Position numbers and translations under genes: made by a program. A model generated the notes under the pieces. That model was given only the letters and a program-made list of their open reading frames with translations, searched no databases and was not told the origin of the DNA. From Termitomyces sp. T153 (taxonomy: Eukaryota > Basidiomycota > Agaricomycetes > Agaricales > Lyophyllaceae), in assembly GCA_018296165.2 (NCBI GenBank), contig JACKQL020000003.1:1116001-1180000 (forward strand): a stretch of DNA of 64,000 nt, read 5' to 3'. Below, piece by piece: positions 1,641 to 24,978 of the stretch. How positions within the stretch are numbered: the stretch's first letter is position 1; each line of letters opens with the position of its first letter.

Positions 1641-1649
1641 AAGGTGCTC

Positions 1650-4963: not shown

Positions 4964-5283
4964 ACTCAAGCTGAACCATGCTAGAAGATTCACTTCTTGG
5001 TATTTATGACAGCATATTAGACACACAGTGACTCAGTTCATGTGGTAACAACTGTATTGCAAGGTATATACCTATTGAACACACAGCAACTAGTATAGTC
5101 TGTTAGTACTAGTATGTCAAATGATATAAATATACTACCCACCTCAGTTCATGTGGTAACAACTGAGGTGGTCCAATATCTGCTTCAATCCTTATATTTC
5201 CATACTGTACAGTCCATCACTTTACTTCTGCAGCAGCAGTGCTAGGTCACATGTGCTTGCACCTCCACAAGCCATCCTCAACA

Positions 5284-5767: not shown

Positions 5768-5772
5768 CTTGT

Positions 5773-6113: not shown

Positions 6114-6149
6114 TCACCCCCCCTCTAGCATGTGGCATCTCAATGTGCA

Positions 6150-6420
6150 GAGTAAAAGAAGTCCCTGATCACTTAGTCTGCTGGCAAGATAGATTAGATC
6201 CCTTGGATAAAGCACAGAGCATCTGGGTGCCTCTTGTGGAACTCCATGATGAGTCTAGGGGCATGTATGTTCTCCCATAGTTCCCAGGAGATATCCTTGA
6301 TCCTGTAGCCCTTCCACTTCACCTTGTATTGTAGTCATCTCCAGAACAAACAGCTATCCAGTATTTCCTCCACCTTGTATTCCTTGTTGTTGTTAACCAC
6401 CACCAGAGGTGGCAGGGGTG
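6150..6420 (-). pseudogene. Gypsy chromodomain (integrase C-terminus)
   Basis: Minus-strand translation gives YKVEEILDS, then LQYKVKWKGY, then DISWE. This is the chromodomain core that defines chromoviruses. In this branch the domain binds histone marks and guides integration. The intact-looking version of the same domain at 55747-55960 confirms the reading. Stops within the arm make this copy non-functional. Confidence 0.8.
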
Positions 6421-6429
6421 GCAGGCATC

Positions 6430-7600: not shown

Positions 7601-7717
7601 CTTCAGCACTCAAGCTGCCTGTGCAACAAGTTCTTCCTGCTGACTGTCCTGATTACCCTGCCAGATGTTCTGGAGAATGTCCAACTCTGCCTCATCAATG
7701 ACTAGACCCTCCATAGC

Positions 7718-8128
7718 TCAGATTGCAAACAGTTCAGGGCAGAGGAGCACAATGTTGCTGTTATCCTCCCCTCCTGTGCCATGGTCTGCTCCTTGGAATA
7801 GAGCATTTGGTTTTCTCATGCTCTGGCCAGGCCTGTAGTACAGCAAGAAGTCAAAGTTGGCAAGGTAGAGGGACCACCAGGCCTGTTGGTGGTTGAGCTT
7901 CTTGGCTGTCCAGAAGTATTTGAGGTTCTTGTGATCTGTCCAGATCTTGAACTTGTGCCATGCATCTTCCAGGAAGTGCTGCCACTCCTTGAATGACTGG
8001 ATAATGGCCAGCATCTCCTTGTCATGGATCTCATATTTCTGCTCCACCACATTTAGGCTTTTGGAGTAGAAGACCACCAAATGCCACCTCCCATCCTCTA
8101 GGGATTTCTGCAAAAGAACAGCTCCCAT
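7718..8128 (-). pseudogene. Gypsy RNase H domain
   Basis: This open stretch of 136 codons begins MGAVLLQ and contains VVFYSKSLNVVEQKYEIHDK, EMLAIIQSFKEWQHFLEDA and the DHKNLKYF motif, all standard for Ty3/Gypsy RNase H. It follows the reverse transcriptase directly. It is the best-preserved open frame of this element. Confidence 0.85.
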
Positions 8129-8960
8129 GGCAAAGTTAGAGCTGTTGGCTTCTACTCAGAAGGAGGAGTTGTCATCAGAGAAAAGGAGAACAGGCCCAGA
8201 GGTGATGGTGCACTTGAGGGCATTGCAGGCCACATGCTCTAGAGGTCCCCAACTCCATGCAACATCCTTCCTAGTGAGGTCAAATAGCAGGTGGGCATGG
8301 TGTGAGAAGTCCTGAATGAATCTCTAGTAGAAGTTTGCAAAGTCAAGGAATGCCTATACCTTCTTCTTGTTCTTGGGCTCTGGCCACTCCACTACACTTG
8401 CCATCTTCACCAGATCCATCTCCACAGCTCCATGCAAGATGATCAGACCAAGATACTTGATTCAGATCTGCTCAAACTCACACTTTTCTAGTTTGAGGTA
8501 GAGTTGGTGCTGGCAGAGGTGCTCCACAAGGCAAGTGATCCAACAGTGTTCTTCCAGCATCTTGGTATAGATGGGAATGTTGTTGAGGTACACAGCTGGA
8601 GGGCATGGAGTCTGGCAACAGTTTGATGGTGTGGTCTCACTTCTTGCACTTCAGAAGCATGTCAAACAAGGCTTTGGAAAACATGTCTTCAAATGCATAG
8701 AGGTAGAGGGGCACAACATCTCAGAACTCCTGGGGCACAGCATTGGTAGAAAATGCTTGAGCCAGCCTCTGGAATGTGGTCTGGCTAGCCTAGATCTCTG
8801 TGATGGAAGGCGGCAGGTATATGGTAGTAGTATAGATCTAGTCCCCCACTTCTACTGCCTTATCTGGGAACTCTGGCTTGCATACACCACCAAACTCCTC
8901 TCCACATTCTTTGTCCTTGTAGAGGGCCTCTCTATAAGGGAACACCAGAGGTGGGAGATC
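8129..8960 (-). pseudogene. Gypsy reverse transcriptase, degenerate
   Basis: Minus-strand fragments include CLVEHLCQHQLYLKLEKCEF, then YLGLIILHGAVEMDLVK, KKV-AFLDFANFY-RFI and FDLTRKD. These are the palm/thumb landmarks after the catalytic aspartates in Ty3/Gypsy reverse transcriptases. In-frame stops occur, for example inside the FANFYRRFI-type motif. I did not find an intact catalytic YVDD-type motif. Confidence 0.75.
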
Positions 8961-9035
8961 CAGGAGGTTCAGATCTGCAAAAAGGAGAGGGCCAGCACAA
9001 CATGCACAGATGGCTGCATGTTCCTGGACTCAAGT

Positions 9036-9470
9036 CTAGCATTCTTTCCTGTTCTTAGCAGCATAGGTGGGGCACTTCTGAGGGCACCTGCTCATAATTA
9101 CTTCTCCCTTGGTCCAATCCACCTCGGGGTTGTGCTTGTGAAGCCACATAAAACCAAGGATTATGTTCTGCCTATCCAAGCTAATGATGGCAAATACAGT
9201 GTGCTCTGCATAATTCCAATAGCAGAGGACCAGTTCAACCATGGATCTAATGGCACTGGCTTTGTTAAGCATTCTGTTGATGTTGTAGACTAGAATTGGC
9301 TTGGGGAGGGGCTGTGTAGTCAGGCCATGGCATTTGACAAACTCCAAGTCTAAGAACAGTTCTGTCACTCTGCTATCCAGCAGGGCCATGACTCTATAGG
9401 CTTGCTGGGTGTCCATTATCTCAATCTCTACATCAAGGCACAGGAAGTTGGCAGACAGGCTGGAAGCCAT
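9036..9470 (-). pseudogene. Gypsy retropepsin-like protease
   Basis: This open frame contains ALLDSRVTELFLDLEFVKCHG. It aligns by eye with the catalytic ALLDSGAT motif of Ty3/Gypsy proteases followed by their conserved FLD/FVKCHGL segment. The catalytic aspartate and serine are kept, but the normally invariant glycine is arginine and the alanine is valine, so the enzyme should be inactive. It sits between gag and reverse transcriptase, as expected. Confidence 0.75.
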
Positions 9471-9499
9471 TATGTACTGTCAGGGCATTTGGCATGCTC

Positions 9500-10860
9500 A
9501 GGTGGGGCCACATTAGCAGACCCTTGGAGGTGTTAGGGAGCTTGGCAGGGGCTCTGGAGTTAGTATTTGTATGTCTGGAGGGGAGCATTAAGGTTCTTCT
9601 GTCTTAAGATGAAGGGCACCAGGAAGCACAATTTCATTTTCTATTGACAGACATGAGAACTTGTTAGCACCTAGTGACAGATGCATACACCTCATCTGTC
9701 ACTCCACTAAAAATTCTCTGCCAACTCCAGGGGTGACACACACTCACTAGTCTCCTCCAGTATCAACTCTAGCATGGGTGCATCTGGCAGTGGAGCTCCA
9801 GTGGCATCCTTTGTAGCTAGCAGCTGCAGGAGGAATTTCTTTTATTTTGCCATGGAGAGATAATGCACCTCCAGGCTTAGGGGACAATGCTATGCAAAGT
9901 GCCCAGGCTTCTGACATTTCTGGCACAACAGCAGCATAGTGCAGAGCTGCTTGGCCATGTCCACATCCATGGGGATGCCTGGTAGCAAGGAGCACAGCAC
10001 AGAAGTAGCCAGATCAAGGGTGGGCATTGGGCAAGCAGGTATGGGATAGCAGAGATTGGTGATAGAAGCAGGGCACATCACAGAATGTGGGCAACAGAGC
10101 TTCCTCCAAATCTCTATGAGTTGCTACTGGTCCCTTGCCAACTCATACTATAATGCAATCTTTTCATCATCTGGGCAACCCTCTGCAAGATTGTCAATGT
10201 GTTTCACCAGCATAGGGTGCAGGCCATCCTAGAAGGTGAGGCATAGTTGAAGGCCATCAGAGTAGGTGGCTTGCTTGACCAGAGCTCAGAACAAGTCAAT
10301 GTACTTGTCCAGCATACGTTTCCCTTGCCCATACTGCTCCCAGTCACATAGTGTCAATGCCATGGTCTTGGCAGGGTCCAGTGAAAAAAACTCCATGCAG
10401 AAGTCCTTCTTGAAGGTGGCCCAGTCTGAAAAACTCCCAACAACTCTGGAGTAATGGAAGACTTATAATGTGTAGGTGGAGGCACATCCCATCTTCATGT
10501 ACAACAGTACCCAGGCTATTTTCAATGCATTGGAGTCAAAGGCATCCCTACTGAGGTGGATGTAGGTGAGGCAGGATTGAAGGAATTGTTCCCTGCTGGA
10601 GCAGGCACCATTGTATGCATCTGATAGTGTGGAGAGCAGGATCTGTGGCTGTAGGGTCACTGGAGCTGCAGAGACAGGTGCAAACATGGTCAGGGCTGGT
10701 TCCACAGCCACAGGAGGGATGGAGATAGGAGTTAGGTGCTTGAGCAATGCCTGGAGTGATTGGGAGATAAGATCTGGTGTTTGACAGAGGGTAGAGAGTT
10801 TGGTAGTATGGTGGGTGAGAGATAATTGTGTTAGTTGCACCTGGGTTTCTAGGTGTAGTA
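9500..10860 (-). pseudogene. Gypsy gag with zinc knuckle
   Basis: Minus-strand blocks resemble the capsid region of this family (compare 60478-61640 on the plus strand). A zinc knuckle reading CQKCQKPGHFA then H-C appears near 9888-9930, the usual CX2CX4HX4C nucleic-acid-binding motif. Frames are broken repeatedly. Confidence 0.75.
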
Positions 10861-11013
10861 GGCAAGTCCAGGCTTTTTCCTATGGGTCTGGGGCCTCTAA
10901 GAATGTGTCTGGATTGGCAAGCTGAGACATAGAACTCTGCAGTGAGTGAGGAGTAACAGATAACAGCTTGGAGATTCCTTGTGGCTATGAGAGGCTTCCA
11001 GACCAGTTTTAGG

Positions 11014-11026
11014 AGACTTGTTCTGC
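11014..11026 (-). promoter_or_regulatory. Predicted primer-binding site of the self-priming (Tf1-like) type
   Basis: Just inside the 5' LTR end (after a 2-nt GC spacer) the sense strand reads AGAACAAGTCT. The same LTR contains AGACTTGTTCT (sense, 11153-11163), its exact 11-nt reverse complement. In Tf1/sushi-type chromoviruses the transcript 5' end folds onto the primer site in this way instead of using a tRNA. By analogy, transcription should start at or near 11163. Tf1 biology is established; its use here is inference. Confidence 0.55.
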
Positions 11027-11375
11027 TGTAAGGGTGACCTCTGGGGTGGCAGATCAGAGTCACACAGCTAGCAGAGGGGAATCTGAAGTATATTAGCAGA
11101 GTAAACAATGATACAATTAGTAACTAATCACCTAGCAGAGGGGAATCCAAAGAGAACAAGTCTAAGGATTCCCACTGCTTGATGCAGCACATCAGCAGGT
11201 GGCAGAGGCATGGGAACTACTGTACAGAAGGCTGGAGCTACTCCTAACCCTAGAACAATGGTTGCTGAGGTAATACAGAAAACTCCAGGGTTCTAGAATG
11301 AGCCCCAGAGACATCAAACAAGCTGCAGAGGTGCTGGAACAAGTCATGGAGGTCAGAAATAGAAGTCCTCTAACA
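11027..11375 (-). repeat. Gypsy 5' LTR
   Basis: This 349-bp LTR has ends TGTAAGGGTGACC and CCTCTAACA on the plus strand. It pairs with 5773-6113. The small length difference and many substitutions show that the element is old. Confidence 0.9.
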
Positions 11376-11380
11376 CTTGT

Positions 11381-11775
11381 GGCATGTAATCCTGGTATCT
11401 GTCTCTGCCATATTGTAGCCTATAGTGTAGGGTAGCCTTGATATAATGCATGATGTATTGCAGTGCAAGCCAATGAGGTTTTCCAGGGTTTGATATATAC
11501 TGGCTGAGAGATGTGATAGCAAATGCAATGTCTGGCCTTATTCACACTTGTGCATACATTAACAATCCAAGTGCCTCCTTGAATGACTTGTCTTTTATGT
11601 ATTGACACTCTTTCTCTATACTTGGTGCCTGTGCTTGATTAAGGATGATACCTGGAGAAAGAGGTGTGTATTTTCAAGTACAGTCCATGATTCCATACTT
11701 TTCAAGGGTTTTTCTCAAGGACTCCTCCTGATCCAGCATTAGTAGGTGCATAGGAGGATGTGGTTGTCCAGGCTG
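11381..11775 (-). mobile_element. Copia reverse transcriptase C-terminal part (upstream half of the split Copia)
   Basis: The minus strand gives KEALGLLMYAQ-like text in broken frames, then RPDIAFAITSLSQYISNPGK- and HYIKATLHY-like motifs, the usual end of a Ty1/Copia reverse transcriptase. It stops exactly at the CTTGT target duplication. The continuation is the RNase H at 5284-5767, so the two pieces are one Copia element split by the Gypsy insertion. The left edge of this piece meets another Gypsy fragment near 11775. Confidence 0.8.
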
Positions 11776-13701
11776 TGCAGGCCCTACAAGCTTGACAGAT
11801 GAGTGGAGTCAAGTCAGTGCATACAGATGAGTGGGGTCTTCAAGATGGGCTTTTGACCTTCAGAGGATGTATTTATGTGCTTAACATTCCAGAACTTTGC
11901 CAGTGCATTGTAGAACAACATCACAACTCTGGGGTAGCCAGACATCCTAGAAGGTGGAAGATGCTTGAGCTAGTATCCTAAAATTATTGGTGGCCACAGA
12001 TCTCCTGATATGTAGGCACTTACACTAGCACCTATAACCTCTGTCTCCATACTAAGCCTTGCTGCCAAGCACCCATGGGCCAGCTCCACCCACTCCCTAT
12101 TCCAGCTGCTCACTAGAGTGTTGCATCAGTGGAACTCATTGTGGAACTCCCAGATGCTCATGGGTAAAATGCTGTGATGGTAGTGGTGGACCTCTATGGC
12201 AAATGAGCTCACTTCATACCTACCCATGCTCTGCCTTGGAAGCAGCCAGCCTGTATTAGAAGAATGTCTGGAAACTCCATAGTTTGTCAGATGAGTATGT
12301 CTCAGACTAGGGCCCTCAGTTTGTGGCAGAATTCACTCAAGAACTGTATTGCCTGCTAGGAGTGAAGCTTCATACCACCATGGCCTATCACCCTCAGTCC
12401 AATGAGCAGACAGAACATGTTAATCAGGAACTGGAACAGTATCTCTGCCTGTTTTGTAATGAGAGGCAGGATGACTGGAATGAGCTGCTGCCAGACATGG
12501 AATTCCAATACAAAAATGACATCCACTCTTCCACACAGATGACTCCATTCTTCCTGGACACTGGCAGACACTCTCACATGGAATTTGAATCTCAGGCATG
12601 CCCCTCAGAGAACAACTCTGTCAACAAGTTTGTGGATCTGATGAAAAGGGTACAGGAAGAGGCAAAAGCTGCATTGGTGAAGGCCAAGAAGGACATGACA
12701 TGGTACTATGATTGCAGATGGACACCTGCCCCTGTTTACAAGTCTGGAGACCATGTGTACTTGGATAGCTCAGACATTAAGACAACAAGGCTATCCCAGA
12801 AGCTATCACATTGTCATCTTGGCCTCTTTGCAGTGGAGAAGAAGGTAGGGCCTTTGGCATACTGATTTAAACTCCTAGCAGGCCTATGCCAACTGCACCC
12901 AGCCTTCAATGTGGTCAAACTATTTCCAGCCCTGGAGGATCCAATCCAGGCTGCATTGGTTTTCTGTCCATAATTCCAACAAGTGTTGCCCCTTCCACAT
13001 GGCCTCTTACTAGACCCCTGGATTGTTTCCTATATTCCAGGCCTACCACTCATTGTAGGCCTCCCATCTTTGGACCACAAGTACTTTCAACTAAGGGCTA
13101 TCCTTTGATTATATTGGTATGTAGTCATGTGCTGGGAGTCTGGAGATTGAGGCCATTTACAATGGATTTCCACTTTTTGATTGGACTCTGGATTTGATTG
13201 TTGTTAGGTGTTGTTTCCAGAAGCTCTAGAGTAAATTTTCTGAACACTGGCATTGGGAATCCTCAGACTTGTTCTCTCTGGATTTCCCTCTGCCAGGTGA
13301 GTAGCTAGAACTCTAGAACTTCTTGTAAATACTGAATAGACTTTAGATCTCCCTCTGCTAGTTGTGTAATTGAGCCACAGCCTCCAGAGGTTGCCCCTAT
13401 GCCCACCACCAGTTTTAGTTGACAATGAGGAGGAGTATGAAGTGGAGGAAATCTTGGATAGCAGAATATTCCAAGAGAAGTTGCAGTTCAAGGTGAAATG
13501 GAAGGGATATGGCATTGAGGACATTTCTTGGAAACTGCAGGCTAATGTATATGCACCAACCCTGGTCCAGGACTTCTACCATAGGCATCTCAATGCTCCA
13601 AAAGCCATTTGAGGCATATACCCCTTTTCAACAGCTGACTAGGCAATTCATGACTTCTTCTACCCAGTATGTCAAGATGCCACATGCTAGAGGGGGGGTG
13701 A
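11776..13701 (+). mobile_element. Gypsy chromovirus 3' fragment: integrase and chromodomain
   Basis: The plus strand holds an integrase of the same family (VEQHHNSGVARHPRRWKML, then the 12323-12865 frame with EFTQELYCLLGVKLHTTMAYH and ELEQYLCLFCNE). A chromodomain follows at 13400-13612 (EYEVEEILDSRIF, FKVKWKGYGIED). After it comes a purine tract (AGAGGGGGGGTGA), where a 3' LTR should begin, but foreign sequence follows at once. The 3' LTR is therefore missing and the breakpoint is near 13701. An LTR segment lies inside, between integrase and chromodomain. Confidence 0.85.
12948..13399 (+). repeat. Truncated Gypsy LTR lodged between integrase and chromodomain
   Basis: From 12948 the sequence follows the LTR at 57705-58236 (GGCTGCATTGGTTTTCTG versus GGCTGCACTGGTTCTCTG) to its end near TTGCCCCTA. 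The first 100 or so bases of the LTR are absent. The chromodomain coding resumes immediately afterwards (CCACCACCAGTTTTAG). Confidence 0.75.
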
Positions 13702-13702
13702 T

Positions 13703-14262
13703 TCAAGTTGAACATCACCCCAATTCCCAGGATCAGCACCCTTTCCCTTATGGAGGGAGGGCTCACCAAGCTGGTTGTAAGGCATGAAATTGATTTTATT
13801 CATGCACTGCTTGACCCACACTTGTTGCTCATTGGTCATATTCCTTCAAGCTTCTATGATTGGGTCATCCGGATGTTGAGTGGGATCTTCACTTGGCTCA
13901 TCATTAAGTACAATATTTTCATTTTTATGCATAATATTATCAGAACAATCTAATACAGGAGATAGTGCTGAACTTTCATGACAATCATCATTGTCAGACT
14001 CAAAACTTGTAAGGCTAGAGTCCATGTCATTGTTCACAATGGAAGCAATGTTCCCACTGGCCTGAAGCTCAGCAGCATCCACCTTTGGATCAGTGGGCAC
14101 AAAGTGCAGTCCTTGACCAGCAGCTTTGGTACTTGCATCTCCAGTCCCTGCCAATATCACGGGACATTGGATAGGACCGGTATTGCGGACAGCTGTGGGG
14201 CTCATTTGGCAAACTGACGTTCTACCCACAGGCTGGTTTTGGAATGGATATCTAGTAGCCAT
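13703..14262 (-). pseudogene. Conserved-looking agaricomycete hypothetical protein, truncated by Gypsy
   Basis: The minus-strand frame starts MATRYPFQNQPVG at 14262 and runs 138 codons to a TGA at 13846-13848. It then stays open in the same frame (EQQVWVKQCMNKINF, then YNQLGEPSLHKGKGADPGNW) until it hits the Gypsy end near 13702. The interrupting TGA sits where CGA would read through (A-R-R-N), a CpG-to-TpG change. The acidic middle and the KGKG-DP-NWG ending resemble a multicopy agaricomycete protein family of unknown function that I recall only loosely. The truncation means the original gene was longer. Confidence 0.55.
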
Positions 14263-14644
14263 TGGTTAGTAACAAATTGAGATTGTATTGACTCACAGTT
14301 ATGGATGTCCTCGGGTGATCAGACCAAGGTAAGTCAAAGACAGCAAGTCAAGGATTTCGGGTAAGAGAAAAGCTAGAGCTTGGTTACATTCAAAATATGT
14401 AACCTCAGCGTGAGGTAACGGTGAGGTCACACGAGAAGTAAAGAGTCTTTGCACAATAATAGGACAGGTGTAAGCTCTGAGAATTGGGAAGTACTGTCTA
14501 CTTAGTACACCACGAGGGTTTATATACCTGTAGCTCCGCAATAGGTCAAAAGTAGTAAGCAACAGGAAGGCACGAAATATAAGAGGAATAGGTGATCAAA
14601 GATAAGTCTGAAATAACTAGAGACCAGTCACGGTCGCTACACAA
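14263..14644. other. Spacer with normal CpG; no supported gene
   Basis: CpG returns here after the island. A minus-strand ORF of 87 codons exists but shows no recognisable feature. Confidence 0.4.
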
Positions 14645-15028
14645 ATGACCAGAACTGTATTTTACGTGATCAATGAGGCCAAACGTGGGGATGAGTTTGT
14701 AAAGGTCCAACAGAAACGCAAGAAAGGCTTTGACGAGGCCGAGGAATCATGCAAGTCTGAATTCCAGGATGCTCAGGAGCGTTGTGAATCCAAATTTCAA
14801 GCTAACGAACGTAAACGAGAACAGAATTTTCTCTGAGATGAGATGGAAAGAAATGCTCAAGCATGGAGGGCACAAGAAGATCGAGAGGAACGATTTCAAT
14901 CGACAATGTTAACCCTGCAAAGGAATTGCATTGAGGCAAATGAATGGCGATTGGGTGAATTAGAAGTGTGGGGCCAGGAGTTGTTGATGAGCAGAGAGCC
15001 AGGACAGGAAAGGCTTCGTATGGATTGA
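14645..15028 (+). pseudogene. Decayed paralogue of the short coiled-coil gene
   Basis: This is a clear duplicate of 18976-19361, in the same orientation about 4.33 kb away. The reading is EAKRGDEFVKVQQKRKKGFD, then EFQDAQERCESKFQANERKR, and it ends in a TGA at 14836-14838 where the sister copy has CGA (arginine in FLRDEM). After the stop the frame continues to match (ERFQSTMLTLQRNCIEANEW and onward to the same terminal TGA). Most differences from the sister are CG in the sister versus TG or CA here. Confidence 0.8.
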
Positions 15029-15106
15029 TACAATGTTATTTGACAATTTGTGCTAAAAATCAATGCTTACTCAACATCAATCCAGATATCTTTGAAATAA
15101 GCTAGG

Positions 15107-15325
15107 ATGAAAATTCAAACTGTCATGACCAAGTGGTCTCATATATCCAAGTCCCATACTTTCAGACTGTCCTATGCTGCTGCTGCTAAGAACCACAGAA
15201 AGGATAGTGACCTAATGCCAGCTCAAAGTGAAACAAATAAGAAGCAAATTGTACCACTCTCATGGACAAGTGACCTATCAAATACTGCATACCAGAGGGG
15301 CAAAAACTTCTGACATGACAATCAC
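15107..15325 (+). repeat. Spacer shared with 19440-19634 and 19980-20140
   Basis: The stretch containing ATATATCCAAGTCCCA and CAGACTGTCCTATGC occurs three times in the window, each time upstream of a tRNA-like unit on the other strand. It belongs to the duplicated block. The copy here has lost CpGs that the 19.4-kb copy keeps (ATTCAAACTG versus ATTCGAACTG). Confidence 0.75.
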
Positions 15326-15327
15326 AA

Positions 15328-15433
15328 TAGCAGCAACTCAATTTGAATGACTGGCCTCAGAGTTGTTAAACTTGCATGTACATGTGTTGCATTAGATACA
15401 AACCCAGCCAATACCAGACTGCATCATGCTGCT
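15328..15433 (-). pseudogene. tRNA relic (family 2)
   Basis: The ends match the AGCAGCA...TGCTGCT acceptor pair and an A-box-like GATGCAGTCTGG. The T arm is altered (TTTGAAT without CpG), and about 24 bp are inserted compared with 19637-19722. It is not expected to fold as a tRNA. Confidence 0.6.
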
Positions 15434-15690
15434 GTACATAGTATAGCTCAGAAAAATACATGAAGCAAAGGAATCAACAAACATAGCACTGACAAGAATA
15501 GATGGTTAAATCTGGTTTGAGCAGTACAATTCGTCATGCTGCTGTACAGCAGTATAGGTTCAAGTTCAAGTCATCAAAAGAACAGATGAAGCAAAGGGAT
15601 CAACAAACATAGCACTGACAAGAATAGATGTTTAAATCTGGATTGAGCAGTATGGTTCTACTGGTAAGTGTTGAATAAATGACAAACGGC
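15434..15690. repeat. Tandem duplication of about 120 bp containing partial tRNA 5' ends
   Basis: ATGAAGCAAAGGAATCAACAAACATAGCACTGACAAG-type sequence occurs at about 15460 and again at about 15589. Each copy follows a CATGCTGCTGTACA segment, the reverse complement of a tRNA 5' acceptor end. A third partial copy lies at 20240-20280. Confidence 0.65.
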
Positions 15691-15786
15691 AAGACACACA
15701 GTACAGCAAAGTTGAATAAGCCTCAAGGCGCACGCCAAGGGGTAACGTAAACTAAAATTGAAAGTTTATAATATAAAATTCAATAA

Positions 15787-15874
15787 TAGCAGCAACTTGT
15801 TTCGATCAAGTGACCTCGGGGTCGCAAAGTATAGACATATGGGCCCCGCGCGCTTCCAGCTGCGCCATGCTGCT
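15787..15874 (-). tRNA. Initiator tRNA-Met(CAT) with 15-nt intron
   Basis: Read on the minus strand, this folds as a complete tRNA. The acceptor is AGCAGCA/TGCTGCT (7 perfect pairs), the D stem GCGC/GCGC, the anticodon stem CGGGG/CCCCG, and the T arm ACTTG-ATCGAAA-CAAGT with discriminator A. The loop CCCATA carries anticodon CAT, and a 15-nt intron (15823-15837) follows position 37, the canonical site. Initiator hallmarks are all present: A1:U72, three G:C pairs at the foot of the anticodon stem, and A54/A60 in the T loop. The A box TGGCGCAGCTGG fits consensus. A TTTT pol III terminator follows at 15775-15778 (as AAAA on the plus strand). The mature length is 73 nt before CCA. Confidence 0.93.
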
Positions 15875-16126
15875 CGATATGTGTTTTGGATTGATGGATG
15901 GAGTGAAGGTGGGAGATTGAGCGTGGATGTACACCTGGCATATATATACGAGACGGGAGATGGAATGAGTGGCGAAACCCGGACATGTACGCGTGGCAAG
16001 TTGCATATAAGGAACAGTAAGTTGATTTGAACAAGATTTTGATTTTGCGAGTCCGAGTCCGAGTCGGTTGGATGTGCTTAACTCGACCGGGGGAGTCACA
16101 AAAAATCCGGCATGATGCCTGGCCCA

Positions 16127-16233
16127 TAGCAGCAACTTGATTCGAACAAGTGGCCTCGGGACGACTTGGTGTACATGAACCTCTCACTGGGATAATACAA
16201 GTCCCGTGCGCTGCCGTGCTGCGCCATGCTGCT
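16127..16233 (-). tRNA. tRNA with UGU anticodon (tRNA-Thr?) and 33-nt intron
   Basis: All arms pair: acceptor AGCAGCA/TGCTGCT, D stem GCGC/GCGC with GG in the loop, anticodon stem CGGGA/TCCCG, T arm ACTTG-TTCGAAT-CAAGT. The loop reads CTTGTA then a 33-nt intron (16163-16195), which puts TGT at 34-36 and predicts a threonine tRNA. The intron contains TACACCAAG, which can pair with CTTGTA, a common feature of pre-tRNA introns. The T loop is elongator type (T54), but the acceptor stem and D arm match the neighbouring initiator gene, including A1:U72. A run of six T (16100-16105 as A) lies downstream. The tRNA call is firm; the threonine identity rests only on the anticodon. Confidence 0.75.
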
Positions 16234-16358
16234 GGGCTTGGAAGCTATTGTGTGGTAGGATGAGGAGAGTCCAGAGTGGTGAGATTGTGAGTCTATACGA
16301 GGAGCACAGTACGCCTGGACTACTGGCAAGTCACAAAAAATCCGACCTTCGGTAATTA

Positions 16359-16451
16359 TAACAGCACCTTGATTCGAACAAGTGACCTCGGGGATAATCG
16401 ATGACGATCGAGAAGGATGTGGTGCCGTCCCATGTGTGCGACGCTGCTGTT
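16359..16451 (-). tRNA. tRNA-like unit with compensated acceptor stem, isotype unclear
   Basis: The acceptor is AACAGCA/TGCTGTT: both strands changed together compared with AGCAGCA/TGCTGCT, so pairing is kept. The T arm ACTTG-TTCGAAT-CAAGG has one end mismatch. The D and anticodon region (GTCGCACACATGGGACGG and onward) does not fold into a standard arm by eye and may contain an intron. A T6 terminator sits downstream (16335-16340 as A). It could be a tRNA with an unusual intron or a decaying copy. Confidence 0.45.
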
Positions 16452-16533
16452 ATCTGCTGTGTGTGTATGCGATAGAGTGAGGATGGAAGAGGGCACTTGC
16501 GCAAGGCAAAAGAGGTTCTCTAGGAACAGATCA

Positions 16534-16608
16534 TAGCAGCAACTTGATTCGAACAAGTGACAACTGGGACACATCACCCGGTGCGCTTCCAGTCTGCACC
16601 ATGCTGCT
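16534..16608 (-). pseudogene. tRNA-like unit with faulty anticodon arm
   Basis: Acceptor, D arm (GTGC/GCGC) and T arm (ACTTG-TTCGAAT-CAAGT) are intact, but the anticodon arm CCGGG-TGATGTGT-CCCAG has an 8-nt loop and one mismatch and lacks U33. No intron fits. A TTTT terminator is present at 16507-16510 (as A). It is probably a recently decayed tRNA. Confidence 0.55.
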
Positions 16609-16702
16609 GTATTTGGAGTTGAGAGTTGATGGTACTAAACGGTGATATTGCGTTGGTGGCCTCGAGCATTAGTGACAAGAAACTGAACGTGATAACTTGC
16701 CA

Positions 16703-16800
16703 TAGCAGCGACTTGATTTGAACAAGTGGCTGCGCCATGCCGGCCAGGACAGCAACTTGATTTGACCAAAAGATAACTCTAGCAGCAACTTGTTTTGCTG
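16703..16800 (-). pseudogene. Fragments of tRNA 3' halves
   Basis: Three short stretches (16703-16740, about 16750-16770 and about 16784-16800) retain TAGCAGCRACTTG with T-loop-like sequence, but lack most of the 5' half. They are remnants of the same tRNA family. Confidence 0.55.
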
Positions 16801-17118
16801 GGATAATCGCATCAAAAGCAGTGCGGTTGCTGTGTCATGGAAACAGCTGCTACGAGTTCCCAGAGTTACGCAGCTGGGAAATTAAATAGGACAACTTGAA
16901 TATCAATCATTGAATCAGCTCGTCCATTACTTGCAAGTCATCTCATACGGAGTCGGACTCAACCTGGAAACATGTCACGCCTAAGGTCTGTAACCCAACG
17001 AGCTACATAATGACGAATTCAAGTGGAACTTGTACTGATAGTCAGCAGGCAGCTCTTGTCTCGAGGAACGACTCACCAGACTAGTCCTACACTGCCTGTG
17101 ACCTTAGAGACATCCAAA

Positions 17119-18704
17119 ATGCGCGAAAAGGAATACACGCTCTCCGAAGCGCAACGTGACATCTTCCAAGAGAGCCTGCATGACTTCCAGCACAAGTTTG
17201 AAGCAGAGGAGGAGGTCCGGTCAGCTGGAGAGCAAACACGAGAGGACAAATTCAACTGTATGATAACAGACTTGGGTGCTATCTTCTTCGAAAATCAACT
17301 ACGACGACAAGAACTGTACTATAAAACCGACGCACTTCAAGAAGAAAGATTTCAAAAAGCTGATGCAGCTCGGGAAGCCATATTTGCTCAGGGACAGACA
17401 GACCGTGCACGCGCTTTTGAAATTGACCAAGAGATGCGTGGTAAGCGAGCAGAGTGGTATAATGCAGCGCGACAGGAGCTGGTGGGCGACGGTCGTCAGA
17501 GACTGAAAGACAAATGTGCCGCTCTCAATGCTACCTTAATAGGACAATTTGAGAGACTGATGAAAAGCAATGCGCCGAGGAACAGCCAAGCAGCCGTGTG
17601 AGCGTTCGTCACCCAAATTGCACTCAATTTCACTCATCTCTTTGCCTTCCATCCAGGGAACCCGTGTATCTTTGGCGAATACTCACCACGTCACCTCCTT
17701 TGTCGGTACCTACGAGTGGGAACTCTTCTCCAACTCGTGTCGCCGATAAATTGATACAGCCAGCGTTGGATCTAGACGATGACGATATCCCCTCCTTAGT
17801 CGACCCTCCACAATCACCTCCATTGGGACGGACTCTGCCTACAAGCCCTGTATTACTAAGAGACCCTTTTGATTCTTCTAGTGTTCAAAGTCCCTTCGAT
17901 CTCTCGATACAGTCAACGTCTACTGAATCCCATGATCAACAGGAGGAACCTCTCCATTCTCTCACTGAACAGGGCGATCTTGAAGAGAACACAAATGAAT
18001 CAGACCAAGTCGTGGACAACAACCATTACACATCCTTTACACACTCCCAAAATCAGCGGCAAGAAACATTCTTAAAAGATGAAAGCGAAAGGGAGCATAG
18101 ATTTCATGCATCAGAAGCTACACGGAATAATAGGGAGTCACAACGCAGTGGTACCTTTGAGCAAAAAATACTGCAGTGGTCTCAAAGGTCGTTGCGATGG
18201 AAGGAGTCAAGGGTGAGGCAATTTCATGGTCGAGAAGAAGAACGATCAAGGGGCAGCAATCGACGTTCAACTGCCTTCAAGGCTGCCCAGCAACAATACT
18301 CCCAGGTATTCAACATGTCATTGTCGCACATCATAAGACAAGCCGAGGCAGAGGTGGATTTAGAGGAGGTTTGGTTCGAACGTCAGAAGGGCATGCTATT
18401 GGCGTTGTACAAATGTCAAGCCAATCAACTCGCTGATGCAAGTCACCGTCAACTCACCTCTTCCTATGTTACAATGTTGTCAACTTGGTTACTGGATTCT
18501 ATTGAACGTGTTATGGGACGTCTTTCAATGTATGAAGATCGGGACCATGAGAGTCCTGAGCGTGTTGCAGGCTCACCAGCAGGATATGAAGAAGACTTGG
18601 GTGAAAAGACGTCTTATAAGCCGCTGTACCGGCGAAATGTGGCTTCCGGTGCGAGTGTTGTGAGTTGTTACAGCATCCACTATAATCTTCTTTTGGAACA
18701 CTAA
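17119..18704 (+). CDS. Coiled-coil protein of the F-x10-F repeat family, two exons
   Basis: Two adjacent open frames join through a 59-nt GT-AG intron (17598-17656): GCAGCCGT then GGAACCC gives V-E-P in frame. With the ATG at 17119 (MREKEYTL) the protein is 508 residues; the frame is open upstream to 17023 and a small 5' exon may exist (ATGTCACGC near 16972). Residues about 1-150 are charged helix with regularly spaced Phe between Glu/Arg runs. The middle is Ser/Pro/Asp-rich and disordered (DLDDDDIPSLVDPP). The C-terminal third returns to charged coil (ETFLKDESEREHRFHASEAT). No catalytic domain is visible. It lies between the duplicated tRNA blocks and is related in style to 18918-19361. The function is unknown. 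Confidence 0.65.
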
Positions 18705-18812
18705 TCATAAGGACAGACGCCATTGTATAGAGCTGATGCGAGTTTTGTGAGTTGTTACAGCATCCACTCTAATCTTCTTTTGAAACACTGATCATAAGGA
18801 CAGACGCCATCT
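18652..18812. repeat. Tandem duplication of about 80 bp at the 3' end of the coiled-coil gene
   Basis: GTGAGTTGTTACAGCATCCA followed by CTTCTTTTG and CATAAGGACAGACGCCAT occurs at about 18660-18723 and again at about 18749-18812. The first copy covers the last codons of the preceding gene. Confidence 0.8.
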
Positions 18813-18917
18813 GCATTGTTCAGAGCAGGTGCTTTCGTTCAAAATGCACTTCCCATACCCCATATTGCAGTTAGTGCCAACAGCAACACATCTCAACGGA
18901 TTGGTGAGCAAAGGAGG

Positions 18918-19361
18918 ATGCACAGAGAGTTTGAGGAGTCACAGGAGCTCAGGGCCAAAGCTTTCAAGAAAGGTGCAAATGACCGGAACCGCATTCACAC
19001 AATCAACGAGGTCAAACGTGGCGGCGAGTTCATGAAAGCTCAACAGAAACACAAGGAAGACTTTGACGAGGCTGAGGAATCACGCGAGTCTGAGTTCCAG
19101 GATGCTCAGGAGTGTCGTGAATCCGAATTTCAAGCTAACGAACGTAAACGAGAAGAGGATTTTCTCCGAGATGAGATGGAAAGAAATGCCCAAGCACGGA
19201 GGGCGCAAGAAGATCGAGAGGAACGATTTCAATCGACAATGTTAACCCTGCAAAGGAATTGCGTTGAGGCGAATGAACGGCGATTGGAGGAAATAGAAGC
19301 GTGGGGCCAGGAGTTGTTGATGAGCAGAGAGCCAGGACAGGAAAGGCTTCGTGCGGATTGA
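18918..19361 (+). CDS. Short hendecad coiled-coil protein
   Basis: The in-frame ATG at 18918 gives MHREFEESQELRAKAFKKG and 147 residues to the TGA at 19359-19361. The frame is open upstream to 18816 and probably begins in an unseen upstream exon, because CTGCATTGTTCAG before it looks like an acceptor. The core repeats every 11 residues: F-DEAEESRESE, F-QDAQECRESE, F-QANERKREED, F-LRDEMERNAQ. This predicts a long, highly charged right-handed-type coiled coil. A decayed duplicate lies at 14645-15028. The protein is not recognised beyond this and has no enzymatic motif. Confidence 0.65.
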   Translation: MHREFEESQELRAKAFKKGANDRNRIHTINEVKRGGEFMKAQQKHKEDFDEAEESRESEFQDAQECRESEFQANERKREEDFLRDEMERNAQARRAQEDREERFQSTMLTLQRNCVEANERRLEEIEAWGQELLMSREPGQERLRAD

Positions 19362-19439
19362 TACAATGTTATTTGACAGTTTGTGCTGGAAATCAATACT
19401 TGTACAAGATTAATTTAGATGTCTTTTAAATAAGCTAGA

Positions 19440-19634
19440 ATGAAAATTCGAACTGTTATGACCAAGTAGTCTCATATATCCAAGTCCCACACGTCCAGAC
19501 TGTCCTATGCCGCTGCCGCTGAGAACCAAAAAGGATAGTGACCTAATGCCAGCTCGAAGCTAAAACAAACAAGAAGTAAGAAGCAAATAGCACTATCATA
19601 CACGAGAAACAAAAACTTCTGACATGGCAATCAC
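19440..19634. repeat. Duplicated spacer, second copy
   Basis: This matches 15107-15325 nearly base for base but retains CpG dinucleotides that the first copy has lost. It precedes the tRNA unit at 19637 in the same way. Confidence 0.75.
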
Positions 19635-19636
19635 AA

Positions 19637-19722
19637 TAGCAGCAACTCGATTCGAACGAGTGCCCTTGGTGTTGCATTAAATACAAACCCGACCGCGCGT
19701 TACCAAACTGCGTCATGCTGCT
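19637..19722 (-). pseudogene. tRNA-like unit (family 2), probably decayed
   Basis: Acceptor AGCAGCA/TGCTGCT and T arm ACTCG-TTCGAAT-CGAGT pair perfectly and the A box region TGACGCAGTTTGG is present. The anticodon arm (TCGGG TTTGTA ... ACACC) does not close properly. TTGTA in the loop suggests descent from the UGU-type tRNA at 16127. A T5 terminator follows near 19611-19615 (as A). Confidence 0.55.
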
Positions 19723-19849
19723 GTACAGCAGTGTAACTTAGAAGAATACATGGTACCGCCCACAAGATAGTGTAGATGTTTTTTCGGTGAATGAAATCTT
19801 GATTGACTAGGTGCGATTTTACGAAAGAGTTGTTCGATTTTTTGGGAGC

Positions 19850-19923
19850 AACGACTTGAACTTGGTCAAACAAATGACCCAGTGGCAGGCCCTGATATGG
19901 GCGCTGCATCATTTTGCTGTTTA
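19850..19923 (-). pseudogene. Highly decayed initiator-tRNA relic
   Basis: The minus strand reads AACAGCA..., GATGCAGCGCCCATATCAG, TGGGTCA... and ...GTTGCT, preserving the layout of the initiator tRNA with many substitutions. It is flanked by the same spacer sequence as other units. Confidence 0.4.
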
Positions 19924-20140
19924 AGAGTATAAGATGGTAGAGAACGCGAGGATACAAGCTTGCTTGCCATCACAACCAACGGTCTCGAATATCCAAGTCC
20001 CACACGTCCAGACTGTCCTATATTGCTGAGAACCACGGAATGATAGCGACTTAACGACAGCTCAAAGCTAAAACTAATAAGAAGCAAATCGTACGACTAT
20101 CATAGACGAGAGGCAAAAACTTCTGACATGACAATCACAA

Positions 20141-20215
20141 TAGCAGCAACGAGTGGCCTCGGTGTTGCGGTCAATACAAACCCAGACGTGCGTTACCAGA
20201 CTGCGTCATGCTGCT
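20141..20215 (-). pseudogene. tRNA relic (family 2) with deleted T arm
   Basis: The acceptor ends and D region match 19637-19722 (TGACGCAGTCTGGTAACGC), but the T arm is reduced to CACTCGTTGCTGCT, so the stem-loop is missing. Confidence 0.6.
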
Positions 20216-20418
20216 GTACAGTAGTATAGCTTAGAAGAACACATGAAGCAAAGGAATCAGCAAACGTAGCACTATTAAATCTGGATTGAGCAGTACTGTT
20301 TTACTGGCAAGAGTTGACCAAAGTACAAACAGAGTTAGAAACTACTCTATAATCCACACCGGTGCGCCGTAAACTAATACTAAAACGACAATCAAAATCA
20401 TAAACTAAAATTCAAAGA

Positions 20419-20498
20419 TAGCAGCAACTTGTTTCGATCAAGTGACCTCGGGGTGGCATGATATGGGCCCCGCGCGCTTCCAGCTGCGCCATGCTGCT
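20419..20498 (-). tRNA. Initiator tRNA-Met(CAT) with 7-nt intron
   Basis: The mature sequence is identical to the gene at 15787-15874, with all initiator hallmarks (A1:U72, A54/A60, G:C-rich anticodon stem, CAT). Only the intron differs: 7 nt (20455-20461) instead of 15 nt, at the same site. A TTTT terminator follows (20407-20410 as A). It is the corresponding gene in the second duplicated block. Confidence 0.93.
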
Positions 20499-20585
20499 TG
20501 GTGTAGGTTTTGAATTGATGGATGGTGTGAGGTGGATGTACACTGGCGCATGTGTAAGCGAACATAAGCCATGACGACTGGTCCA

Positions 20586-20649
20586 TGGCAGCAACTTGAA
20601 TCGAACAAGTGGCCTCGGGACGACAGTGAACGTGCTGCGGCATGCTGCT
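20586..20649 (-). pseudogene. Internally deleted copy of the UGU-type tRNA
   Basis: Both ends match 16127-16233 (AGCAGCATG... and TCCCGAGGCCACTTG), but most of the D arm and the 5' half of the anticodon arm are missing. Confidence 0.65.
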
Positions 20650-20735
20650 GGGGTTGTAAGGTGTCGTGAGAGGGTGAGATTGTGAGGAGCACAGTACGCC
20701 TGGAGTGACACCAAAAATCCGACGTTTGGTAATTA

Positions 20736-20821
20736 GAGCAGCACCTTGGTTCGAACAAGTGACGTCGTGGATGATTGAAGGATGTGGTGCTGTCCCATGC
20801 CATGTGTGCGACGCTGCTGTT
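20736..20821 (-). pseudogene. Second copy of the 16359-type tRNA-like unit
   Basis: The sequence GTCGCACACATGG...ACCACATCC corresponds to 16359-16451. The acceptor now reads AACAGCA against TGCTGCT, so one pair is lost, and the discriminator is C. A T5 run lies downstream. Confidence 0.5.
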
Positions 20822-20894
20822 GTCTGCTGTGGATACGCGCCAAAAGAGGTTCTCTAGGAACAGATGATTTGAACAAGTGCGACGCAGACAACTG

Positions 20895-20946
20895 TGGCAG
20901 CAACTTGTTTGGATCAAGTGACGGCTTCCAGCTGGGCCATGCTGCT
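20895..20946 (-). pseudogene. Initiator tRNA lacking the anticodon arm
   Basis: AGCAGCATGGCCCAGCTGGA runs directly into the T arm (ACTTG-ATCCAAA-CAAGT) and acceptor. The whole anticodon arm is deleted. The 3' side lies only 96 bp from the SET1 start codon. Confidence 0.65.
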
Positions 20947-21041
20947 GTGTCAGCAGAGCTGAGATCAAAAGGGAATGGTGAATTGTTGGGACTTGATCCA
21001 TCCACATCACGGTGATTTTTTTTCGACCAGGACGGGGCCGC

Positions 21042-24000
21042 ATGTCAGGCAAGGCGCCGCCCAAGGGCCCTCGAGCGCTGTATGGGCCGAGCCAGCAACA
21101 GCAACGGATACCGACGGGGCCACGGAGTCTGGGGGGGAGCCGGCGACGACGCGAGGAGACGGAGACGCGGGCAGCGATTTCGATTGCGATCCCAGCGCCG
21201 CCGACCAAGGTGCTGCAGCGACCGGACGTCTTTCATGCCGAATCTCCGCCGCCGCCGCCGCCGCCGCCGCCTGATTACGATCCCCCGCCGCCAGAGCCGA
21301 CGCCTCCCCCGCCGCCGCCGCCCCCGCCAAACGAGCAGCCGCCGCCCCCGCCGCCGCCGCCGCCAACTCCGCCAACTCCGCCGTCGTGGCCGCCGCCGCT
21401 GTCAGCGTACCCGCCGTCTGTGCGGACGTACAAAGTGCTGTACGACCCGCAGCTGGACTTTGTGCCGCCGCCCAGGCCCGAAAAGGACAGCGCGGGCATC
21501 GTGCCGGCGGCTCCCAGCGCCCTGGCAGCGCAGAACCACGCCGCGCTGGCACTGCTCGCAGACCCGAAGAAGGACGTCAAATACTACCGCGCGCTGACCG
21601 AGCACTGCCGCCGCCACCACCCAAAGCGCATCAAGGGCAAGACCAGGGCCCTCCTGCGCATCGACGGCGACGTGCTCCCCGCCACCGAGTCTGCCCCGCC
21701 CGAGCCCCCGCCCGTCCCCCGCGACCCCCGCCGCGACCGCACCCCCAAGCTGGCCCTCGCCCGCCCGTTCAGGGAGGTCCTCCACGAAACAGCGTACGAG
21801 GTGCGTCTGCTTGCCCCGCCTGCGTGTCCGCGCTGACTCTCGACAGTACGACGCCCACTCCCCCACGCCCCCGCCGCTCTCTGTCGTCCTCGCCTCCCTC
21901 CCCCCCCTCGCGTCCCCCGCCGTCCTCCGCAGCCACTACCGCACCTACGGCCACCTCTCCGCATTCGAGTGGCAGACCAACCGCGCAAACGGCGCCCCCC
22001 TCGGCGTCCTCCATCTCCGCTTTGCGTCCTGGGAAGACGCCGCCCGCTGCGTCCGCGCCGAGGACGGCCGCAGGCCCGTGTTTGGCGTTGCCTTTCAAGG
22101 CGCACCCGACCCACAGGGACAGCCCGACGACGAGGAGAGGGTCCGCGCAGTCCTTGATCCAGACGGGAGGATCCTCAAGGCCGTCGTGCGCCAGTTGGAG
22201 GCGAGGAGGAAGAAGGAGAGGGGGGTGCCCCCGACGCAGACGCCGCGCACAGAGGGCAAGGGCACCCCACCACAACCACAGCAACTCCACCCTACACTCC
22301 CGCCTAAACCAGTCACGGCCGCTGCCGCCTCTCCCGGGACACCAACCAACGTCCATCCAAATATCGCACAGGCACTCCAGCAGCAGCAGGGTGCGCCCCC
22401 GGTTCCTACGCGCGCCCAGCCTATGCGCGAGCGCGCGTTTCGCACCAGGGACAGAGCCCGCGTAGACTCGTATGTCCCCGCGTCGACGACGCCGCCGCCG
22501 TACTATCGCGGCGTGCGGGATACGTGGAGACCCCGCGCGGGCCGGCGGTTCAGTTCATCTGGGGAGCGCGACGCGTCCAGGTCCAGGTCGAGGGGGCGCG
22601 GACGCGGAAGGAGTTGGAGGGGGGGATGGAGTCGCAGTCGCAGTAGGGAGAGGAGCTGGAGTAGGAGTAGAAGCAGGGAGGGAAAGAGGGAGAGGAGGGA
22701 GGAGAGGGAGGAGAGGCACAAGTGTGTTGTTGAGATGCTGGCGAGGAATGGAAAGGAGCATGTTAGGTTTGGGCTGTTGGGCGGTGTGAGGGAGGAGGAT
22801 GTCGGTGTGTTTTTTGACGGGTTCAAGGTCGATTTGGTGCGTTGCGGGTTTTGGGTTTCTTTTGCGTTTTGGGTTTGCTTCTGGGCTTTGGGCTTTTCTT
22901 ACGGGCTTTGGGTTTCTTTTGCGTTTCCTTTCGCGTTTGGGCTTTTCTTACGGGTTTTCTGTCGAATCTTTGGTTTTCTTTCGGGCTTTCTTTGCCCGTT
23001 TCCTTACTCACTTCCTCACTCCTTCCATCTCTTTTCCTCATTTATCATCTCTCTCTCTCTATCTACTACTACTACTAACCCCCCACCCAGATCCTCAAAG
23101 ACCACCTCGGGTGGTACGTAACATTCACAACGCCGGACCAAGCCCTGCGCGCCTCCCGCGTCCTCTCCAACTCAAGCACCAAAAAGCTCGCCTACCAATC
23201 CGTCCCACTAACCGTGCACCCCGCGCCCGCGCGCTCTCCCTCCGGTCCACGCGACACCAAAAAGTGGGACGCGCACGCGCTGGTGGAGGCTGCCAAGGCG
23301 GAGATTGAGGAGGAGCTCAAGGCGGTGTTGAGGATGGATGTGAAGGAGGTGTTGGGGAGTGGGGAGATGATGAGGGGGAGGGTGGGGAGGGGGATGGTTG
23401 AGGCGATTGGGAGGGAGAAGTTGAAGTTGAGTGGGGGTGGAGGGGAGGGGATGGGGATGGGGAGTGCGGGGGGTGTTGGGTTGAAGGGGCTGTCGTTTAG
23501 GAAGGCGAGGCCGAAGGTGGAGGTGGAGGTGCCGGTGGAGGTGAAGGAGCAGGAGGTGGATGGGGAGAGACCGAGGAAGAAGAGGAAGGAGGTTGTGAAG
23601 AGGGTTAGTAGGAAGGTTGTGGATGAGGAGGTTGAGTCGGAGGAGGAGGTGCGGGATGATAGGAAGAGGAGTGTGGAACGGGAACAGGAACAGGAACATG
23701 ATGTGATGCCTGTGCGTAAGAAGCAAAAGGTGCAGGTGGAGATTGAGGTGGAGACGACGACGACAAAGACGAAAAAGGGCGCGGCGAAGAAGAAGACGAC
23801 GACAACGACGACCACGACGACCACGACAAAGAAGACGCTCAAGAAGACGCTTGAGACGGTTCAGGATGTCGTGTTCACCACGACGGAGGAGGACTACGAC
23901 GTTCCTTCTATCGCGCAAGTCCACATCACGCCAAGTTCGTCACGCTCACAATCACCAACAACCCGTCCACGCCTAGTCACGCCTCCTCTCGACCCATACA

Positions 24001-24978
24001 ACGCAGGGTTATGCCAAGACGACGAAGACGTCTACTTCCTCAAGCTCGCGCTCAGTGGGTACCAATTCCCCGCCGCCGCCGACGACGACGCCGACGCCGA
24101 CGAACCGAAACTCCATACCCCCGAGACGCCCGCGTTCCGTAAACACATCACGGGCTCCGCGCGTACGGAAGGCTATTACAAGATCACACACGCCGAAAAG
24201 GCCGCGTATGTCGCGCAGTACCAAGCGCGCGCTGCAGCTGCATCAGTCGAGGCCGCGTCTGCGGCCGAAGAGCCGCAGCAGCAGCCCATCACATCATCGC
24301 GGTCTAACCGCGCGAATGCGCGGAGACGCGCGCAGGGGCTCGAGGAGATCAATCAAGTCCAGCGGGCCGTTGCGTTGTCCAAGGGGGAGAGCGCAGCGAG
24401 TGAGTTGACGTTCAAGTTTAACCAGCTGCAGACGAGGAAGAAGCATTTGAGGTTTGGGCGGTCGCCGATCCATGATTGGGGGTTGTATGCGATGGAGAAG
24501 ATATCGAGGGGTGAGATGGTTATTGAGTATGTTGGGGAGGTGATTAGGGCGCAGGTGGCGGAGAAGAGGGAGAAGGCGTATGAGCGGCAGGGGATTGGGA
24601 GCAGTTATCTTTTTAGGATCGATGAGGAGATTGTGGTTGATGCTACTAAGAAAGGGAATCTGGGGTATGTGGTGCTTTGTGTTACTTGGTGGTTAGCTGA
24701 TGGGTGTGGATCGAATCAAAGGCGGCTGATCAACCATTCTTGTGACCCTAACTGTACGGCAAAAATCATCACGATCAGTGGTGAGAAGAAGATTGTTATT
24801 TATGCGAAACAGGATATTGAACTTGGTGATGAAATTACTTATGGTTCGTGTCCCCTCCGACGTTTCGATTTCTTTTTACCTTGCTGACTGTTCCATACTA
24901 GATTATCACTTTCCGTTCGAGCAGGACAAGATCCCATGTCTATGTGGATCTGCCAAATGCCGTGGTTATCTCAACTAG
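21042..24978 (+). CDS. SET1: Histone H3-K4 methyltransferase SET1 (COMPASS catalytic subunit)
   Basis: Five exons join in frame: 21042-21800, 21847-22836, 23091-24664, 24722-24843, 24902-24978 (1173 residues). The enzyme methylates histone H3 lysine 4 in the nucleus within COMPASS. In order: a proline-rich N-terminus (about residues 65-125), an RRM-like domain (about 275-340), an SR/RS-rich stretch, a SET-associated segment spanning intron 2 (VRFGLLGGVREEDVGVFF then DHLGWYVTF), a lysine/threonine-rich linker, the N-SET region (HITGSARTEGYYKI), the SET domain (RKKHLRFGRSPIHDWGLYA, RLINHSCDPNC) and a post-SET C-x-C-x4-C ending CRGYLN. An upstream in-frame GTG at 21012 was rejected in favour of the ATG. 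Intron 2 is unusually long (254 nt). Exons 1-3 are far more GC-rich than neighbouring genes. Confidence 0.95.
22837..23090 (+). other. SET1 intron 2 with GGGTTT/GCTTTT internal repeats
   Basis: This GT-AG intron (GTGCGT ... CCACCCAG) is four to five times longer than others in the window. It consists largely of repeats such as TTTGGGTTTCTTTTGCG and GGGCTTTTCTTACGGG, followed by a CT-rich tract and a short CTA repeat before the acceptor. Confidence 0.8.

Follow-up and report, generated by a model that had tools for sequence, protein, structure and literature searches.

The 64,000-nt window analysed here, from Termitomyces sp. T153 (contig JACKQL020000003.1, positions 1116001-1180000 of the contig labelled C3 in a 72.4-Mb assembly of 307 contigs), holds between about 15.3 and 20.95 kb an array of tRNA genes and tRNA-like relics. 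Comparison of its units suggests with good confidence that this is a local birth-and-death cluster, in which two initiator tRNA-Met genes would still be working while the other units are mostly decaying. Below, positions with a C-number are on other stretches of that contig or on other contigs of the assembly, and L-numbers denote loci that were examined. Fourteen units or fragments were counted, all on the minus strand and in two blocks, A and B, with some ends placed by eye; within each block genes and pseudogenes lie less than 1 kb apart, as in tRNA clusters with pseudogenes. The 3′ half of the tRNA (T-arm and acceptor) gave 11 matches at three or fewer mismatches, all minus and all between 15328 and 20920, and none in 100 shuffles. 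For the 5′ half, 14 matches at the same stringency were found in the whole window (shuffles: mean 1.13, largest 5); 11 of these are within 15419-20947, every one on the minus strand, and one further is at 15167. A run of four or more T residues follows within 30 nt of 10 of the 14 units, compared with 15% of positions in the region; when homologous units, grouped by hand, are counted once, the figure is six of eight. A first-pass annotation had claimed at least 12 minus-strand units in two blocks, most with a terminator of their own, and both counts bear this out.

Two units are intact initiator tRNA-Met genes. Gene A (15787..15874, minus strand) consists of exons 15874-15838 and 15822-15787 around a 15-nt intron (15837-15823), and gene B (20419..20498, minus strand) of exons 20498-20462 and 20454-20419 around one of 7 nt (20461-20455); each has TTTT 8 nt downstream. 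ARAGORN, run with introns allowed, reports tRNA-Met(CAT) with a 7-nt intron exactly at 20419-20498. When gene A is split at its CCCATA/ACCCCG borders, it yields the same 73-nt exons as gene B, a CAT anticodon, and the 15-nt intron. Initiator tRNAs are distinguished by an A1:U72 pair, A54 and A60, a CAT anticodon, and three G-C pairs in the anticodon stem. Both genes have A1:U72, A54, A60, the CAT anticodon, three G-C anticodon-stem pairs, and a full cloverleaf, in agreement with the two intact initiators described in the first-pass annotation. Both are probably transcribed by RNA polymerase III (Pol III).

Pattern and BLAST searches of the assembly found six initiator genes in all, the other four being at C3:721221, C7:483706, C13:418342, and C3:1583063; a reversed-pattern control found none. 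It had been suggested that the cluster might prove ordinary if dozens of identical initiator genes existed elsewhere, and four were found. The 3′ half alone, at three or fewer mismatches assembly-wide, matches these six and four other array units, and no intronless gene. The 73-nt exons are identical in four of the six; C3:1583063 differs at one position and C3:721221 at three, one in the D-loop and the others on both sides of a single T-stem pair. All six have an intron between positions 37 and 38 (15, 7, 21, 12, 11, and 15 nt), with mutually unlike sequences. Because of these introns, ARAGORN types just three of the six as Met. Other isotypes in the same genome commonly carry introns, so an intron-bearing initiator fits its surroundings. 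In five of the six, genes A and B among them, a pair is possible between position 32 and intron −3, the third-last base of the intron (chance of at least five of six, 0.005); this is the pair that eukaryotic splicing endonuclease expects. The A-I pair is named in the part consulted of a paper on Cryptococcus neoformans, where introns are given for 132 of 143 tRNA genes (PMC4090602). The Termitomyces set resembles such intron-rich fungal sets, as that part describes them, in having introns one nt 3′ of the anticodon and in many isotypes; beyond this likeness, all six initiators found in the Termitomyces assembly carry them. In the portion of the open-licence literature searched, no report of introns in fungal initiator tRNA genes was found, which is weak evidence of absence.

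The remaining units are more varied. Grouped by eye on their T-loops, three (15787, 20419, and 20895) have the initiator loop or its remains, 19852 is doubtful, eight carry an elongator loop, either TTCGAAT or a variant (15328, 16127, 16359, 16534, 16703, 19637, 20586, and 20736), and two cannot be read, 20141 with its truncated T-arm and 16780. The label "array of initiator tRNA genes" is thus right only in part: three, perhaps four, of 14 units are initiator-type and eight have an elongator T-loop. Four units (15328, 16127, 19637, and 20141) share a UGU-type anticodon loop. One of these, at 16127..16233 on the minus strand, is structurally complete in its predicted cloverleaf, as the first-pass annotation had it, with 21 of 21 stem pairs, U33, and anticodon UGU; ARAGORN calls it Thr(tgt), its 33-nt intron is at 16195-16163, and T6 lies downstream. 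It combines an elongator T-loop with an initiator-like acceptor stem, and its anticodon stem contains an A-U pair in place of one G-C pair of the initiator. The body of this unit does not resemble that of C20:525139, which by hand is an ordinary tRNA-Thr(UGU); that gene lies between two ARAGORN Thr(agt) genes and is itself typed Ala(agc) by ARAGORN. Three matches to a tRNA-Thr(UGU) pattern were obtained (reversed-pattern control: one), of which one is a tRNA by hand reading.

The other units, all on the minus strand, are in various states of decay. Two more with the UGU-type loop form a pair of counterparts: 15328..15433, which has no CpG left and an intron similar by eye to that of the complete unit, and 19637..19722, with acceptor and T-arm intact and three of five anticodon-stem pairs. 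The fourth, 20141..20215, has lost part of its T-arm. The complete UGU unit has a counterpart without an anticodon arm at 20586..20649. The relic at 16359..16453, with an intact B-box and a T6 run but a D-arm unrecognisable by eye, corresponds to 20736..20823. A near-complete unit with an elongator T-loop, 16534..16608, has an anticodon loop of 8 nt (by eye) and one broken anticodon-stem pair. The initiator-type relic at 20895..20946, the unit nearest to the SET1 gene, lacks the anticodon arm, and a weak relic at 19852..19920, a 5′-half match with CCCATA, is by eye possibly initiator-derived. Two units represent the 3′ half, 16703..16750 (a 3′-half match) and the weak fragment 16780..16850; a 5′-half match at 15529..15544 was kept outside the 14. 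Pairing changes in the T-arm of 15328 relative to 19637 were considered as compensatory, and hence as a sign of function, and this was rejected: by eye they include the loss of all three CpG, so no selection is needed to explain them.

Conservation of the units relative to their flanks separates the initiators from most of the rest. The exons of genes A and B are identical at 73 of 73 positions and their flanks at 91 of 115 (p = 5e-6). Among five relic pairs, four show no difference in identity between unit and flank: 16359/20736 (unit 75/84, flank 85/94), 15328/19637 (70/82 and 89/111), 20141/19637 (65/75 and 96/107), and 16534/20895 (52/62 and 83/100). Birth and decay, as proposed in the first-pass annotation, are thus supported by initiator exons that stay identical between diverged flanks and by relics most of which diverge as their flanks do.

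An alternative is that the array grew and was retained for the benefit of additional initiator tRNA. Two of the six initiators found are here and both look constrained, and with that share an effect of the array on translation start through dosage is possible. On the other hand, three or four of 14 units are initiator-type and most other copies decay. Six initiator genes are also not a high number. Selection for dosage is therefore, in our view, an improbable origin.

Blocks A and B are collinear copies with some rearrangement, 4.3-4.6 kb apart, and a protein gene was duplicated along with them. This coiled-coil-like gene (17023..19361, plus strand) is made up of three open reading frames (ORFs) with no Pfam match, the coiled coil being judged by eye, and a truncated 3′ end of it at 14642..15017, also plus, is the left copy of the segmental duplication. 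Matches to its last ORF number three, each on contig C3: these two and C3:1094291-1094824, which adjoins a tRNA-unit fragment at C3:1095104. BLAST searches with the block B array and unit 16127-16233 matched, outside the locus and among the best candidates scored, just the four other initiators and that fragment, and there is no further unit in the 9.9 kb around each of those four. So many tRNA-like relics in one place might suggest a tRNA-derived short interspersed element (SINE) family spread by retrotransposition. Apart from the fragment beside the co-duplicated gene, however, the queries used found no dispersed relic, nor dispersed copies with a common tail, and the units retain tRNA 3′ ends and T-runs. 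The SINE reading was rejected as very improbable indeed.

For the birth-and-death cluster the following history can be proposed. An initiator tRNA gene would have been duplicated in tandem; one branch would have changed to an elongator-type body with a UGU loop and then multiplied; and a segment of roughly 4.3-4.6 kb, containing the array and the coiled-coil-like gene, would later have been duplicated. The two initiator genes would have been kept under purifying selection and transcribed by Pol III from internal A and B boxes, with transcripts ending at the T-runs, and their short 37/38 introns would be removed by the tRNA splicing endonuclease. On this view the array illustrates how tRNA genes arise, are remoulded, and decay around initiators that all bear introns.

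Several points weigh against this account. ARAGORN finds a tRNA exactly at 15787-15874 but types gene A as Ala(tgc), and the initiator at C3:1583063 lacks the pair between position 32 and intron −3. The Rfam tRNA model RF00005 detects none of the six initiator genes in their 3-kb loci (L011-L016), even at E values up to 10. The 16127/20586 pair, the fifth of those compared, has a better conserved unit (60/63) than flank (79/103; p = 0.002), so not every non-initiator unit looks neutral, and for 16534/20895 homology itself is doubtful. The genome DNA searches score best candidates only, and from block A a single unit (16127-16233) served as query. With regard to detection, RF00005 also has no match in the window at its cut-off, nor any in 14500-21500 when E is relaxed to 10; it was discarded as an arbiter because it misses all six initiators. 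ARAGORN with lowered thresholds, which gave from 122 to 495 calls in the window, was dropped.

The first-pass annotation also regarded a cluster of this kind as unusual, and this part did not hold. Elsewhere in the genome there are two Val genes with starts 376 nt apart, two Ser genes with starts 175 nt apart, and a group of three Thr genes, so that the array looks like a fairly ordinary birth-and-death cluster. The three Thr genes, all intron-bearing, share about 1 kb of locus L097 (positions 1128-2139); ARAGORN types the outer two as Thr(agt) and the central one as Ala(agc), which by hand is Thr(UGU). A survey covering 74 eukaryotic genomes describes, in the part consulted, tRNA clusters that include pseudogenes, have most members pointing the same way, and turn over fast (PMC2888827). 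The array is like these in its parallel orientation, units less than 1 kb apart, and interspersed pseudogenes; it differs from the clusters in that part of the survey in that its founder was apparently an initiator tRNA, several units bear introns, and the protein gene next to it was duplicated as well. Rapid pseudogenisation accompanying anticodon remoulding has been described in primates and flies (PMC4981973, in part), and the array shares with such alloacceptor remoulding a tRNA body with a changed anticodon, mostly ending as pseudogenes. The apparent change here differs from the cases in that part: a body resembling that of the initiator gave rise to an elongator type with a UGU anticodon, its T-loop altered and one G-C anticodon-stem pair replaced by A-U.

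The base composition around the array raises the question of a second role. Less ordinary than the array itself is its position near a transposon block almost devoid of CpG. The window begins with this CpG desert (1..14159; change-point at 14159), which has retroelement-like repeats and a CpG observed/expected of about 0.01, and a second desert with the same ratio occupies 54125-64000; both have sharp edges, and between 14159 and 54125 CpG is near normal. The deserts have an excess of TpG and CpA, as expected if CpG sites there were long methylated and lost by deamination. Both contain repeats, and in one repeat there is a weak Tf2-type match that falls short of the curated cut-off. DNA methyltransferase family matches are present in the genome. 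The array is a candidate for a chromatin barrier, an interpretation compatible with a birth-and-death origin, although it can be offered only tentatively: Pol III/TFIIIC complexes on its intact genes, and perhaps on leftover B-boxes, would keep CpG methylation or heterochromatin of the transposon block from spreading towards SET1.

Local evidence for this is mixed. In block A a small stretch (15018..15531) has no CpG, compared with 15 in 19351-19740 of block B. If 700 nt to each side of gene A are considered, the change-point falls at 15686, a distance of 101 nt from the 3′ end of the gene, which favours a barrier. Widening the span to 1450 nt on either side shifts it to 15728, at a distance of 59 nt; CpG density on the low side is then 0.018 per base, above the limit of 0.006 used elsewhere, so the locus fails that rule. 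Between the main edge, at 14159, and the array lies a stretch of normal CpG content, gene A being 1.6 kb and the first relic 1.2 kb from that edge. Given that distance and the failed density limit, the array locus does not by itself demonstrate a barrier. Also unfavourable are the other edge, 54125, near which ARAGORN calls no tRNA, and the relics, which are mostly no better conserved than their flanks.

Other tRNA loci were more suggestive. Of 60 tRNA match places listed for the assembly, nine on contigs C226, C232, and C236 were taken as mitochondrial and 51 as nuclear; the test set was 29 of the 51, the four initiator loci, and one Thr locus, 34 in all, some of them close together (C10). 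The idea was fixed before the second batch of 12 loci, and both edge rules were set after both batches had been seen. Sharp CpG-desert edges occur at seven of the 34, never more than 200 nt from the tRNA gene and in six cases within 50. For deserts on the 3′ side, the edge is 0, 1, and 0 nt from the gene (L098, L112, and L116, respectively); for those on the 5′ side the distances are 32, 32, 50, and 200 nt (L102, L113, L092, and L105). Against uniform placement in the examined span (about 735 or 1450 nt), the combined p is about 2e-8. The other 27 loci have no sharp edge by the rule, which counts against a barrier; among these, L108, L117, and L091 have weaker CpG changes, below the rule and far from the gene, and L119, the weakest tRNA match, is inside a desert with no CpG. 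A simpler rule places five of 33 tRNA genes at an edge (three of 11 in the second batch), compared with 7 of 1319 non-desert positions (0.5%). The positions of this null come from around the window and from loci that are nearby or carry initiators; they are no random sample of the genome, and all seven lie in the window and so are not independent.

On this basis it is conceivable, though we hold it with less than even confidence, that tRNA genes across the genome act as barriers to CpG methylation spreading from transposon blocks. The record of CpG loss would then locate each one to the nucleotide scale, either where the gene ends on its 3′ side or roughly 30-50 nt upstream of it, about where the Pol III initiation complex sits, and the array would be a compound barrier to which decaying B-box copies may contribute. 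A precedent is Schizosaccharomyces pombe cen1, where barrier activity is described, in the part consulted, as general to the tRNA genes (tDNAs) there, orientation-independent, and dependent on an assembled Pol III complex (PMC2040200). According to the same part, B-box repeats bounding the mating-type region need TFIIIC alone, and a tDNA to the left in cen1 is without barrier activity, which counts against the idea. Since B-box repeats need only TFIIIC, relics with a B-box alone could act in that way or not at all. The Termitomyces edges resemble these borders in involving several isotypes in either orientation; the evidence in Termitomyces is a mutational record of CpG loss, as opposed to the heterochromatin marks and barrier assays of S. 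pombe (PMC2040200, in part). No report of tRNA genes as methylation barriers in basidiomycetes was found in the portion of the open-licence literature searched, again weak evidence of absence.

The main rival is target choice by transposons: if elements insert beside tRNA genes, subsequent CpG decay would put the edge at the gene with no barrier activity involved. Retrotransposable elements do favour tRNA genes as integration sites, according to the consulted part of the survey (PMC2888827). At L098 a repeat begins about 280 nt from the gene, and at L102 part of the desert beside the gene resembles other desert stretches. However, the nearest 280 nt or so at L098 are without matches, and at L116 the 568 nt of desert beside the gene match nothing else except for about 80 nt, in a search that skips very common words. 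Such unique desert DNA speaks for spreading into unique sequence over an insertion abutting the gene, although very old insertions could likewise look single-copy. It also tells against target choice that 3′-side edges fall at the gene end and that deserts occur on both sides. We consider target choice slightly less probable than a barrier as the explanation of these edges, and likewise below even. If the limits of CpG-depleted domains are determined by tRNA genes, the sequence by itself would show where a methylation barrier stood over evolutionary time, and this idea can be checked with methylation maps of fungi.

As the first-pass annotation stated, the array lies beside SET1. The gene region (21012..24887, plus strand) is divergent from the array, and SET and N-SET domains were found in its ORF 23214-24887. 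Beyond it, at 25603-27196, is a tandem triplet of a unit of about 440-560 nt, with copies 84-96% alike.

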